A stretch of 64,000 bases of DNA from positions 1,655,272 through 1,719,271 of the forward strand of contig OY811984.1 of NCBI GenBank assembly GCA_963681505.1, in the 5' to 3' direction. The stretch's first letter is position 1; each line of letters opens with the position of its first letter. This document shows positions 1,190 to 28,878 of this stretch, in pieces. Position numbers and translations under genes: made by a program. The stretch comes from Eunapius fragilis (Eukaryota; Porifera; Demospongiae; Spongillida; Spongillidae). The notes beneath the pieces are model-generated. The model was not told where the DNA came from. It did no database searches and worked only from the letters and a program-made list of their open reading frames with translations.

Positions 1190-4100
1190 ATGGCAGCTCC
1201 GACGCGAGGTCCTACGTACAAGGTTATTCTTCTAGGGGAGCTGGGCGTCGGTAAAACATCGCTATTCAGGCGGCTGAAGGATAACGTTTTCGACGAGTTT
1301 CAGACCGCCACCACCGGCATCGACAGCTGCACAAAAGTTGTTAAAGTAGAAGGACAACAGGTTATGGTGAGTTATATTTTGAGTGACGGGTGCGTGGCAT
1401 ATACGCGCATGTGTGTGTGTAGCGCACGTGTTACTTAGCTACTGCGGCATACGTTGGTTTCCCACTTGTATCAGTCACTCCGACATCCCATTCCACGCCC
1501 CTCCTCTCTCCACCCACGTCTCTCCATCAGCCCTCCTCCTCCCCTCCTCTCCTCCTCCTCCTCCTCCCCCAGCTTTGTCTGCTTTCCCTTCAAGTTAAAA
1601 TAAAAGCACATAGAAGGGCTAGCTTAGGATGCGAGCAGTAATCATAGCAGTTGATGCGACTAATGAACCGTGCCTTGTAGGAGGTACGTATCAGCAAATC
1701 ACTGGAATTCCCATACCTTCACACCTGTTGTAACCTATTCCATACATCACATGTGCTGAATTAGGTCCATACAGTTTAACATGAAAATATGCAGACACGT
1801 TTGTTCCTTGCACTTTCTGTTCCCACAGCCATTTCCTTAATTCCCCGTCTTTCCTCCCTCTCTCTTCCTCCTCCCTCTCACCCTTCCTCTTCCTCTTCTC
1901 CCTCTTTCTCACCTCCCCTACCACTCTCCCTCTCTTTTCCTCCTCCCCTCCCTATTCTCCCTCCTCCCCTCTCTATTCGCCCTCCTCTCCCTCCTCCCTC
2001 CCTCCTCCTCCTCCCCTCCCTATTCTCCCTCCCCTCTCTATTCGCCCTCCTCTCCCTCCTCCCTCCCTATTCTCCCTCCTCCCCTCCCTATTCTCCCTCC
2101 CCCCCTCCTATACCCACTTTGTCCTTCTGGGCAGGACCATGTACACCTGTATACCCACTTTGTCCTTCTGGGCAGTACCATGTACACCTGTATACCCACT
2201 TTGTCCTTCTGGGCAGGACCATGTACACCTGTATACCCACTTTGTCCTTCTGGGCAGGACCATGTACACCTGTATACCCACTTTGTCCTTCTGGGCAGGA
2301 CCATGTGCACCTGTATACCCACTTTGTCCTTCTGGGCAGGACCATGTACACCTGTATACCCACTTTGTCCTTCTGGGCAGGACCATGTACACTTGTATAC
2401 CCACTTTGTCCTTCTGGGCAGTACCATGTACACCTGTATACCCACTTTGTCCTTCTGGGCAGGACCATGTGCACCTGTATACCCACTTTGTCCTTCAGGG
2501 CAGGACCATGTGCACCTGTATACCCACTTTGTCCTTCTGGGCAGGACCATGTACACCTGTATACCCACTTTGTCCTTCTGGGCAGGACCATGTACACCTG
2601 TATACCCACTTTGTCCTTCTGGGCAGGACCATGTGCACCTGTATACCCACTTTGTCCTTCTGGGCAGGACCATGTACACCATGTATACCCACTTTGTCCT
2701 TCTGGGCAGGACCGTGTACACCTGTATACCCACTTTGTCCTTCTGGGCAGGACCATGTACACCATGTATACCCACTTTGTCCTTCTGGGCAGGACCGTGT
2801 ACACCTGTATACCCACTTTGTCCTTCTGGGCAGGACCATGTACACCTGTATACCCACTTTGTCCTTCTGGGCAGGGCCGTGTACACCTGTATACCCACTT
2901 TGTCCTTCTGGGCAGGACCATGTGCACCTGTATACCCACTTTGTCCTTCTGGGCAGGACCATGTACACCTGTATACCCAAAACTTTGTGCAGGACCACAT
3001 GCATACATCCAGTGCAGGTTGGGTCGTGGAGTGGACCAATGAGATTTGCTGCTGTATTGACCCCACCCAAATACCCACACCACACATACTGCTCTGGTCA
3101 GTAGTGCATAGCTTTCCGCATCACATGACCAAATTGTTAATTTGTCCAGTTATGTAGACGTGCACTCCGACAGGGGGTATTAGTGACTAGAATGCACACG
3201 CACACGCACACACACACACACACACACACATATACAAGCACGCGCAAGCACACTCGCACACACAAAGGATAGTTAGTTATATTCCAGCCCCATAGGGGTG
3301 ATCAAGTTTTCAATGCTGCCCTATGATTGGAGTCTGATACCCCCACCATAGCAAAGTCTAAAGTTAGGCTACTTGTGATAATTCAGTGAACATGTCTTGC
3401 CCACTTGGTACCAAGGCAATGGCAGGCACAATTGGACACTAATAAATGAAGCAGCAAACATATCTACCTTGCCATTGTGTATGTGTGTGTGTGTGTGTGT
3501 GTGTGTGTGTGTGTGTGTGTGTGTGTGTGTGTGTGTGTGTGTGTGTGTGTGTGTGTGTGTGTGTGAGTGTAGTTGTTTTGCTGTTATCATTGCATTGCTA
3601 GTAATGGTCATTATAGGGTGGATGGTGGTGGTGGTGGGGGGGGGGGGGGGGGGGGGGGGGGAGAGCTGCAATAGTGGCTGGATGGTACTTGGTGGATCCC
3701 CTGTTCCAAAAGGAAAACTACAAGTTTAAAAATAAAAAACTGCCACAGCTGTTACAAGCACTAGGTGTGCATAAGCAATAATGACAGTGTTAGCTGGTGA
3801 TTTTTCATCTCTCTTCAATTAGAACCATGTCTTTTTAATACTTCTTTAACATACACCCCACACACACATGCACACATGCTACCCCACACACATGCACACA
3901 TGTGCGCACCACATGTACACGTGTGCCCTAAACATTGGCTGTTGTGACCTGGTAGCTTTGCACAAATGTACTATTGTTCCAGCCAAATTCAGTTGTTCTC
4001 TTTGATGGGTCTACTCAAAGGCGTTTCCACACTAGCAGAGGCAATGCGGATCGATCCGGTTTGCCTTTGCTAGTGCGGAAACGCCTTAATAGACATGAAC

Positions 4101-26181: not shown

Positions 26182-28878
26182 TTAACAACATTGTGATGAC
26201 GAAGATTCTTTTTTCCGAGGCTCTTTTTCAATGTCCACCAATCCCAGTTTCGGTTTCGAACTGTTTTGGTGTCTGTGGATGGCCCTAACAGTCTTCTCGA
26301 AACTTTCCTGCACATTTAACCCCTCCTTTGCGGATGTTTGGAACTCGAGTGTGGTGCTCAGTTCTTCGCACAGCAGCTTGACCGCGTCCTTACGCACCTC
26401 CGTCTTGAGGTCACACTTATTTCCAATTATTGCCCACGTAATGTTTTCGCTTTCTTCAGTGGAGTTGATCTCCTCCACACTTTCAATCCACTGCTGGAGG
26501 TTCAAGAAGGTGCATTGGTCGTCCACACTGTACGTGAGAAGTACGCCATCCACGTTACGGTAGTAGTTGTGGGTCAGTGAGCGATGGCGCTCCTCCCCAC
26601 CCGTGTCAAATAACCGAGCCTACCGAGACGTGGAAATGGGTGTGGTGATGGGTGTGGTAATGCGTATGTGTGTGTGCATGTGTGTGTATGTGTGTATGTG
26701 TGTGTGTTAAGATATGAGGAAGGAGGGGTGGGAAGGAAGGAGGGAGAGGTAATTGAAATCACAGGAATACACATGCACATGCCAACATTCAGTGAGAACT
26801 GACAAGTATTATGGGGATGTGTCATTATTACTGGCTGCCTTTTTATTGATTATTTTAGGAATTAAAATGCAAACCACTTCAACCACATGACCAACCACAT
26901 GACCAACCACCCTAACTCCAACCACATGACCAACCAACCACATGACCAATCACCTTAACTCCAACCACATGACCAACCACATGACCACCCACCCTAACTC
27001 CAACCACATGACCACCCACCCTAACTCCAACCATATGACCACCCACCCTAACTCCAACCATGTAACCAACCACCCTAACTCCAACCACGTGACCCCCACC
27101 CTAACTCCAACCACATGACCCCCCACCCAACTCCAACCACATGACCAACCACCCTAACTCCAACCACATGACCAACCACCCTAACTCCAACCATATGACC
27201 AACCACCCTAACTCCAACCACATGACCACCCACCCTAACTCCAATCATATGACCAACCACCCTAACTCCAACCACGTGACCCCCACCCTAACTCCAACCA
27301 CATGACCCCCCACCCAACTCCAACCACATGACCAACCACCCTAACTCCAACCACATGACCAGCCACCCTAACTCCAAACACATGACCACCCACCCTAACT
27401 CCAACCACATGACCAGCCACCCTAACTCCAACCACATGACCACCCACCCTAACTCCAACCACATGACCACCCACCCTAACTCCAACCTCATGACCAACCA
27501 CCCTAACTCCAAACCTACTCTCCTTTAAGTGCTGTGTTGTGGAACACATTATCACACAGTGGTAGCACCGAGTGTTAGCTTTACTTTTGGTATGGTAATG
27601 AGTAAAAGTTGCATCATTTCCTGGTTGGTATGGATACAAACATAATATGCAATTGTCTCTCCTTGCTCACTTTCAAAACGTAACTACATTGTACCACACA
27701 CAGCCTGCTCAGAGCCATTTTGTAATGAGGTAACCTGTGTTTCAAGAGATGTATAATTCCACATAATCTCGTCAGTCTTTTAATGTGGTCATCTGGGACC
27801 ATGTTATTAAAACGTTTATTACATAATCTATTATCTCATAGAGACAAAAAAAAACCTGAACACTCATCTGAAGATATATTGAAGGGGTGATGTAGGCCAC
27901 TCCCCCCTGTGCCCCCATCAGGATTTGGTGGCCCCTCCTCCCCAGGTCCCCACCATAGGTTCTCCTCAGTCAAACCCCTTGAGGCCACAGGCTGGTTCAG
28001 GCCCCACCCACCCCACCATCCTCCCTCCCTCTCGCCCCCCCTCCCCACCCACCCCACCATCCTCCCTCCCTCTCGCCCCTCCACCCCAAAGCCTGCACTT
28101 GCAATCAATATTACGTAGTCATGACGTTCATTGAAAGATGAAGGAATTACCTAACACACAGGGGTGCGCTCATTTCTGTGTACACAAAGACACCTGCTGC
28201 AAACATTACTGTGCATGCATGTGCTGGAGCTCTGAGCACACACACGCACATATACATACCACACACACACACACACACACACACACACACACAAACAACT
28301 AACGATAAACTAATCACCGCAATCACAATCGAAACACAGAGAACAATATTATTGCACACCCTAACTGATGAAGTAATCCCCACGGACACACTGCCCCAAG
28401 ACATTATGTATTACATGAACACCCCCTACCCCCCTTTTCTCGGACTGTCACATATTGGAGCCCCCAGGACAGTATGTCCATAGATAATAGAGTAGGTATG
28501 TCTCAGTCCATTACCTCCAGGACAAAAATTTATAGTCCTCCCCCACCCCCCCTTGATTGTATATACTTGTACACATGCAGAACAACCAAGAATTATAATT
28601 CCAAGACATAAATTTTTGTCATCAGTGCTTATTTACTGGAATAGCCTAAATGCCGTGCCGTTATAGACATGCCGTTCTTACCATCGATAGCGATCATGTA
28701 CCTTAATATCAGTTCCATCTATGTTCATGGTGCATTCCAGGGCTATTCCCATGGTGACGAGAGACGATTTCGTCGAATCCGTGTCCACAAATTTCCCGGT
28801 CTTCAGCCGCCAGTAGTACGTGCTCTTGCCTACCCCGGGATCACCAAGCATGATGAGCTTGTACTCGGTACCGCTCAT
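26182..28878 (-). CDS. Rab-like small GTPase RLG9 (two exons)
   Basis: Complement of join 26182-26619 and 28702-28878, about 204 aa. The donor is AAG|GTACATG and the acceptor CGGTAG|GCT, phase 0, common position. Motifs: MLGDPGVGKST (G1), LVTMGIA in switch I (Thr and Gly kept), LFDTGGEERH (G3), NYYRNVD, IIGNKCDL (G4) and QTSAKEG (G5), ending SSSQCC. Gln after DTxG is Glu; Ras-12 is Pro. The Ser-rich linker before CC is typical of Rab tails. The 2.1-kb intron holds a minisatellite and a (CA)n run. It is the last member of the cluster and separated from RLG8 by about 2.9 kb of minisatellites. Confidence 0.9.
26873..27522. repeat. 25-27-bp minisatellite in RLG9 intron
   Basis: The unit is ACCACCCTAACTCCAACCAC plus ATGACC, with length variants; about 25 copies. 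Frames across it in both directions are artefacts. Confidence 0.95.
28259..28292. repeat. (CA)n microsatellite
   Basis: About 34 bp of CA in the RLG9 intron. Confidence 0.95.

Follow-up and report, generated by a model that had tools for sequence, protein, structure and literature searches.

What follows for a family of Rab-like GTPases when the catalytic glutamine (Gln) is absent from every member of a gene cluster? This question is raised by a 64,000-nucleotide stretch of the demosponge Eunapius fragilis (assembly GCA_963681505.1; contig OY811984.1, here C14:1655272-1719271; hereafter, the window), taken from a genome whose 24 contigs add up to 218,937,333 bases. A preliminary description of the window had listed nine clustered Rab-like GTPases (R1–R9, window positions 1190–28878) in which the residue following the DTxG motif (G3), where Gln is expected, reads V, T, T, L, M, A, S, N, and E, and our analysis reproduced this series exactly and in gene order. 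The nine genes turned out to be members of a larger Gln-less set that has largely kept its nucleotide-binding motifs and that may consist of slow or non-hydrolysing descendants of a Rab1-group gene.

When the genes were rebuilt from their P-loop and DTxG exons and then spliced, all nine proved to be intact two-exon genes, with both exons open in 9/9 and predicted proteins of 197–245 aa that share only 25–55% pairwise identity. Exon 1 encodes the P-loop and exon 2 encodes G3–G5 and the tail, and one GT..AG intron of phase 0 lies at the identical place in all nine, with donors that come after a Lys, Met, or His codon and acceptors 12 nt 5' of the DTxG codons. Because G3 begins 12 nt into the exon that encodes G4, G5, and the tail as well, it is unlikely that a normal G3 comes from another exon. 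The claim that G1 and, in most genes, G4 and G5 are kept held throughout: GxxxxGK[ST] is present in 9/9 genes, NKxD in 8/9 (the exception, R4, has SKCD), and SAK in 7/9 (SCK in R1, SSK in R7). A Cys stands among the final four residues in 9/9 genes (CSC, CC, CCG, CVRL, or a single C), making membrane anchoring plausible. Besides the Gln, the Thr of the switch-I (G2) TxG motif is gone from 4/9 genes (R2–R5).

The individual genes differ in strand, intron length, and motif spelling. On the forward strand, R1 (exon 1, 1190..1366; exon 2, 4788..5216) combines the P-loop GELGVGKT and G2 TTGID with DTAGVER (Val for Gln), GNKSD, SCK, and a -CSC tail. R2 (6031..6213 and 6385..6828, forward; start picked from four in-frame ATGs) has GNVGVGKT, a switch I without TxG, DTGGTET (Thr), GNKND, SAK, and -CCG, and R3 (9517..9765 and 10122..10610, forward; start at the sole in-frame ATG found) has GNLGVGKT, again no TxG in switch I, DTGGTEA (Thr), GNKTD, SAK, and the CaaX-like tail -CVRL. 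The next two genes lie on the reverse strand, also lack TxG in switch I, and end in -CSC: R4 (exon 1, 14867..15052; exon 2, 13379..13813) reads GDLGVGKT, DTGGLEQ (Leu), a G4 changed to RSKCD, and SAK, and R5 (17756..17938; 16638..17078) reads GDLDVGKT, with Asp at the fourth P-loop place, DTGGMEQ (Met), GNKCD, and SAK. Three forward-strand genes follow: R6 (18573..18764 and 18823..19275) with GEPGVGKT, TVGLD, DTAGAER (Ala), GNKSD, SAK, and -ISC; R7 (19967..20158 and 20944..21363) with GDLGVGKT, TYLGCD (TxG plus one extra residue), DTGGSER (Ser), GNKSD, SSK, and -SCC; and R8 (21607..21780 and 22861..23280) with GDAGVGKS, TLGAD, DTAGNEK (Asn), GNKVD, SAK, and -SAC. R9 is on the reverse strand (exon 1, 28702..28878; exon 2, 26182..26619) and carries GDPGVGKS, TMGIALE, DTGGEER (Glu), GNKCD, SAK, and -QCC. 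Minisatellites occupy parts of the introns of R1 (2109–2979, 41-base unit), R8 (22015–22397, 29 bases), and R9 (26891–27512, 27 bases).

To define the extent of the Gln-less set, profiles (exon 1 from R1–R9; exon 2 from R1–R9, four other Gln-less members, and the Gln-bearing gene L029) were searched against 174 kb around the window (C14:1635272-1809271) and other fetched places. The set continues past the window on both sides, upstream at C14:1652539 and downstream at C14:1746103-1795963. Within the same 174 kb, a strict DTxGxE scan picked out 19 sites, of which two (1795954 and 1766771) belong to copies that seem broken or fragmentary. All 19/19 strict sites are without Gln, and the close orthologues with a normal Gln in this region, which the preliminary description had named as a refuting result, were thus not found. 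Ten further Gln-less Rab-like sites lie elsewhere, at L020 (Gly), L022 (Met, Leu), L025 (Gly), L026 (Thr), L027 (Arg), and on contig C19 (four, all Met), so that at least 29 such G3 sites, two of them in the broken or fragmentary copies, exist in this one genome. Across the whole genome, a DTxGxE-type pattern matched 52 G3-like places, of which 33 have Gln and 19 lack it, as compared to Gln in 0/11 pattern sites at C14:1.65–1.80 Mb (Fisher p 1.3e-6, a value that speaks to clustering only, the copies being related), which excludes chance as an explanation; because this pattern overlooks some members (e.g., R2 and R3), its counts are to be read as minima.

The splice position is also nearly constant in the set. 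An AG stands 12 nt 5' of DTxG at 18/19 strict C14 sites (11 nt in copy c1781) and at 10/10 dispersed Gln-less Rab-like sites, setting aside L028 (C3:5675500-5683000), a Rab-like gene of another type, perhaps akin to Rab20, in which Glu replaces Gln (DTAGEERY) and the AG at 12 nt is missing. Three Ras-type genes with Thr at the Gln place (L002, L003, and L006) also fall outside the Gln-less Rab-like set. The C19 cluster (L023, L024; C19:3660643-3672802) comprises four Gln-less Rab-like genes that resemble the C14 family in the position of the AG, but differ from it in having Met throughout, in retaining TIGF/TVGF in 3/3 testable copies, and in forming a separate clade (support 100/99). A tandem Rab cluster at approximately C9:637-671 kb (L030–L035) has Gln at 7/7 pattern sites, and because the AG stands 1 nt rather than 12 nt ahead of DTAG in the six that were fetched, it probably represents a different Rab subgroup. 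Another tandem GTPase cluster was observed at C17:4815239-4852164, where six tightly spaced Ras-superfamily frames of 200–208 aa each come near to a full-profile match.

Alignment of the family revealed which positions were held and which were released. Among the 23 rows kept after exclusions, the P-loop G, G, and K are present in 22/22, DT.G and the Glu next after the lost Gln in 23/23, and the G4 residues N, K, and D in 19/23, 20/23, and 20/23, whereas the catalytic Gln is found in 0/23. The Gln site has an entropy of 3.29 bits in the family (rank 13 of 168 scored columns), compared to 0 bits in 15 Gln-bearing rows. The switch-I TxG/TxxG Thr remains in 7/19 testable family rows (R1, R6, R7, R8, R9, L020, and L025) and is missing in 12, but is present in 9/9 testable Gln-bearing rows; rows with an absent or partial switch I (c1746, c1748, L026, L027, and L023M3) and the row with a cut exon 1 (Q_L030) were set aside, and c1777, whose TKKGDKD match lies outside switch I, was scored as missing. 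Scoring by alignment column instead gave 4/20 family rows vs. 12/12 Gln-bearing rows. At locus L013 (C14:1744868-1748403), the switch-I part of exon 1 seems to be interrupted by a long insertion in two members. Gly replaces the Ala of DTAG in 12/23 family rows; this change is not tied to the loss of Gln, because DTGG stands next to Gln at two sites of the same genome. A C-terminal Cys among the final four residues was found in 17/19 other Gln-less exons read to the stop (exceptions, c1652 and c1795). Two Rab signatures have almost vanished: the Phe of RabF1 (TIGVDF) is present in 0/18 family rows vs. 11/11 Gln-bearing rows, and the Gln of RabF2 (xLQIW) in 1/22 vs. 12/13, and because of these losses the family appears to be Rab-derived, yet not to consist of typical Rabs. 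Judged by its sequences, it shows the combination that marks pseudoGTPases, a lost catalytic residue with retained nucleotide-binding motifs.

In a tree built without the Gln column, a branch with support of 97/94 separated 23 Gln-less rows from the rows used for contrast. These were 15 Gln-bearing sequences (ten from this genome and five PDB chains), several of them partial and assembled by hand from exons, and the four C19 rows. Excluded were c1791 (no G3), c1795 (a stop and an altered P-loop), the fragmentary copies 1765489, 1766691, and L046 (the last with His at the Gln site), and L028, and c1781 was retained despite its acceptor AG being displaced by one base. Forcing all 27 Gln-less rows together cost 0.21 log units (approximately unbiased test, p-AU 0.43), and a single loss for the C14 family and the C19 Met cluster alike, which is not rejected, is therefore possible; for the C19 group, an independent loss explains the data just as well. 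The nine window genes alone were rejected as a clade (p-AU 1.7e-12). The preliminary description was right about the nine genes, and the set is larger than it stated. Its proposal that one constraint was lost in an ancestor and that diversification followed is supported by the separation of the 23 rows, the single loss that is not rejected for all 27, and the variability of the site. Within the family, R4 and R5, without the Thr, nest in a clade (95/92) in which every other member whose switch I can be read has it, and it is missing also from R2 and R3, which stand elsewhere in the tree; from this arrangement we infer that Gln was lost first and the switch-I Thr later and more than once.

In the tree that included Ras-type rows, the two of them (L002 and L006) paired at 100/100 outside the Gln-less rows, but this pair took an odd position next to L001/L037 (92/89), within the Gln-bearing Rabs, and the deep forks of that tree are therefore weak. 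Thr at the Gln place is a feature of Rap GTPases that also occurs in R2, R3, and L026, but a Rap identity of these three was rejected, as they group with the Gln-less Rab rows and not with the Ras-type pair. The Gln-bearing two-exon Rabs L029 and L043 share the splice place of the Gln-less family, from which they differ in retaining TIGVD and Gln, and the best PDB match of L029 is Rab1B (205 bits). For the three of nine window proteins searched, the best matches were Rab1A for R1 (122 bits) and R9 (103 bits) and Rab18 for R6 (96 bits), and Pfam Ras was above its cut-off in 4/4 window proteins tested. We conclude with moderate confidence that the Gln-less family originated in the Rab1 group. 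According to one Rab phylogeny, Rab1 was apparently duplicated repeatedly in animals, giving Rab19, Rab30, Rab33, Rab35, and RabX6 (PMC3425129); this is the group nearest to the family in sequence, and L029, which is split at the family's own splice place, resembles it.

The explanation that we favor, to which we assign an even chance of being correct, is that R1–R9 and their relatives descend from Rabs, are prenylated, and hold a nucleotide that they hydrolyse slowly or not at all, comparable to Rab24 but forming a clustered family, which arose from a Rab1-group gene and lost Gln most simply once. The ancestor, in the lineage of this sponge, would have belonged to the Rab1 group and had an intron immediately ahead of xLxWDTAG; its descendants would have lost the catalytic Gln in cis and then multiplied through local and dispersed duplication. 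The nucleotide grip (P-loop, DTxG, NKxD, and SAK) and the Cys needed for prenylation are retained, and constraint has been lifted from Gln and, in about two-thirds of testable rows, from the switch-I Thr that senses the gamma-phosphate. This division, with grip and anchor kept and the hydrolysis residue and phosphate sensor freed, fits proteins that hold nucleotide without a need to switch, and the loss of the G2 Thr in many members points to a loss of switching rather than of hydrolysis alone. By analogy with Rab24, the proteins would sit on membranes filled with nucleotide, likely mostly GTP, and would not cycle but use a diversified switch-I face to bind partners. From gene sequences we infer this nucleotide state, the prenylation, the membrane location, and the partner binding.

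Several observations weigh against this explanation. The AG at 12 nt also occurs in the Gln-bearing genes L040, L041, L042, and L021/L048, and its place alone does not prove descent; in L040, L041, and L042, it is probably part of a Lys codon in a frame that continues upstream. Some of the Gln substitutes may leave hydrolysis intact, given that Thr occupies this place in Rap proteins and in the Ras-type genes L002, L003, and L006 of this genome; Glu is the substitute in Ras Q61E. The family may be mixed, its members differing from one another, and part of it may be decaying, with ratios of nonsynonymous to synonymous substitution (dN/dS) of up to 0.66 in exon 2 of recent copies and two copies broken. 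Finally, hydrolysis driven by GTPase-activating proteins (GAPs) may persist, above all in R1 and R6–R9, which have the G2 Thr, because TBC-type RabGAPs contribute a glutamine finger of their own in addition to an arginine finger (PMC3676764; PMC11101121), and loss of the Rab's own Gln need not block the reaction. For the same reason, GTP-locking of the family is plausible rather than assured.

Taken further, the supply of Gln in trans gives the alternative that survives best, namely that these are working, cycling Rabs whose own Gln is dispensable and drifting. The retained nucleotide-binding motifs and the G2 Thr in R1, R6, R7, R8, and R9 are in accord with it; however, Gln is kept at 33/52 G3 sites in the genome and all 19 exceptions belong to the Gln-less set studied here, so that a Gln supplied in trans is not by itself enough to release the site in other Rabs, and the G2 Thr, too, has gone from 12/19 testable family rows. 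We regard this alternative as serious but rather unlikely.

A second alternative is relaxed drift in a redundant tandem family with birth-and-death turnover, in which the copies share no new function and are partly becoming pseudogenes. Signs of decay were found outside the window. Four recent copies at C14:1781545-1797509 (L017, L018), with 83–89% exon-2 identity, include c1791, in which a trinucleotide (CAC/CCA-type) repeat run takes the place of G3, c1795, with a premature stop and a P-loop Gly changed to Arg, and c1781, with its displaced acceptor. Upstream of the window, c1652 (C14:1652539) no longer has NKxD and carries its tail Cys short of the terminus. Two further copies, 1765489 and 1766691, are fragments. 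The earlier view that the genes diversified rather than decayed thus applies to the window, where all are open, but not to at least two recent copies beyond it. Using pairwise Nei-Gojobori estimates only, we obtained usable dS for 9/14 exon-2 pairs (six recent and three older), the other 5/14 being saturated. Exon-2 dN/dS was 0.34–0.66 among the four recent copies, values that drift could explain, but lower in the older pairs (R4/R5, 0.33; R7/L026, 0.34; c1770/c1778, 0.17, with dS of 2.7 near saturation), and it exceeded 1 in none of the nine usable pairs, giving no sign of positive selection in exon 2. Among the recent copies, 2/6 exon-1 pairs gave a dN larger than dS (0.038 vs. 0.029; 0.019 vs. 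0), which rests on 2–5 changes in 48 codons, too few to weigh. On the whole, the exon-2 ratios indicate constraint, which is looser than expected of ordinary Rabs. Pure drift is also difficult to reconcile with nine open genes of nine at 25–55% identity and with the preservation of the P-loop, DTxG, and tail across such long divergence, and we consider it improbable.

Very improbable is a diversifying recognition set (immune or self/non-self, as the preliminary description had entertained, or decoys for Rab-targeting pathogen effectors), which the clustering of a multigene set whose switch I and Gln site vary and the two exon-1 pairs with dN > dS might suggest, but which gains no support from the usable exon-2 pairs, all below 1, or from the seven window frames tested against Pfam, among which no immune family was found, the flanks not having been surveyed for other genes.

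Returning to the slow or non-hydrolysing Rab descendants, a bolder version would hold that at least two dozen prenylated members abandoned the switch wholly, first through Gln and then stepwise through the switch-I Thr, leaving the nucleotide as a structural core only and turning the switch-I face into a diversifying membrane recognition surface. The chances of this version are low.

Comparison with known systems places the sponge family among atypical Gln-less Rabs, where it is unusual for its size, clustering, and stepwise motif loss. Rab24, an atypical Rab of animals, is likewise a Rab without the catalytic Gln; its GTPase activity is reported as weak or absent and the protein as mostly GTP-bound (PMC12385749), and its prenylation as inefficient (PMC4756281). 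However, a section title of one Rab phylogeny puts Rab24 with Rab5 (PMC3425129), whereas the best PDB matches of the sponge proteins searched are Rab1 and Rab18, and the single sponge genome contains the many Gln-less sites counted above. Rnd1/Rnd3, the N-terminal domain of p190RhoGAP, CENP-M, and septin pseudoGTPases are described as binding modules that have lost hydrolysis or nucleotide binding, some being permanently filled with GTP (PMC10211241, PMC10731463), but these belong to other GTPase families, and the sponge proteins may still be active. Among the matches listed in the open-access literature on sponge Rabs, Rab repertoires, atypical Rabs, and pseudoGTPases, no title or start of an abstract named a sponge cluster of Gln-less Rabs. 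Gln-less small GTPases are known singly, and a clustered family that perhaps goes back to one loss would offer a natural series, with the same lesion, many substitutes, and the Thr kept or lost, in which the path from a Rab to a non-switching adaptor, the order of motif loss, and the ability of TBC GAPs to stand in for a Rab's own Gln could be tested.

The rest of the window contains features of other kinds. An open frame of 1258 aa on the reverse strand (43333–47106) has no Pfam match. Two other reverse-strand frames (52086–53810 and 58870–60598), also without a Pfam match, start nearly alike, the second being split into two overlapping frames; an array of ATGATGGTTA adjoins each of them (51578–51752 and 58320–58539), and a 61–62 base unit recurs (55498 and 61320). 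Because the like-starting frames, their flanking arrays, and this unit recur together, the arrangement looks like a segmental duplication. Two domain fragments are present as well, a reverse transcriptase (PF00078) on the forward strand at 37424–37900 and a hAT dimerisation domain (PF05699) on the reverse strand at 63573–63998.

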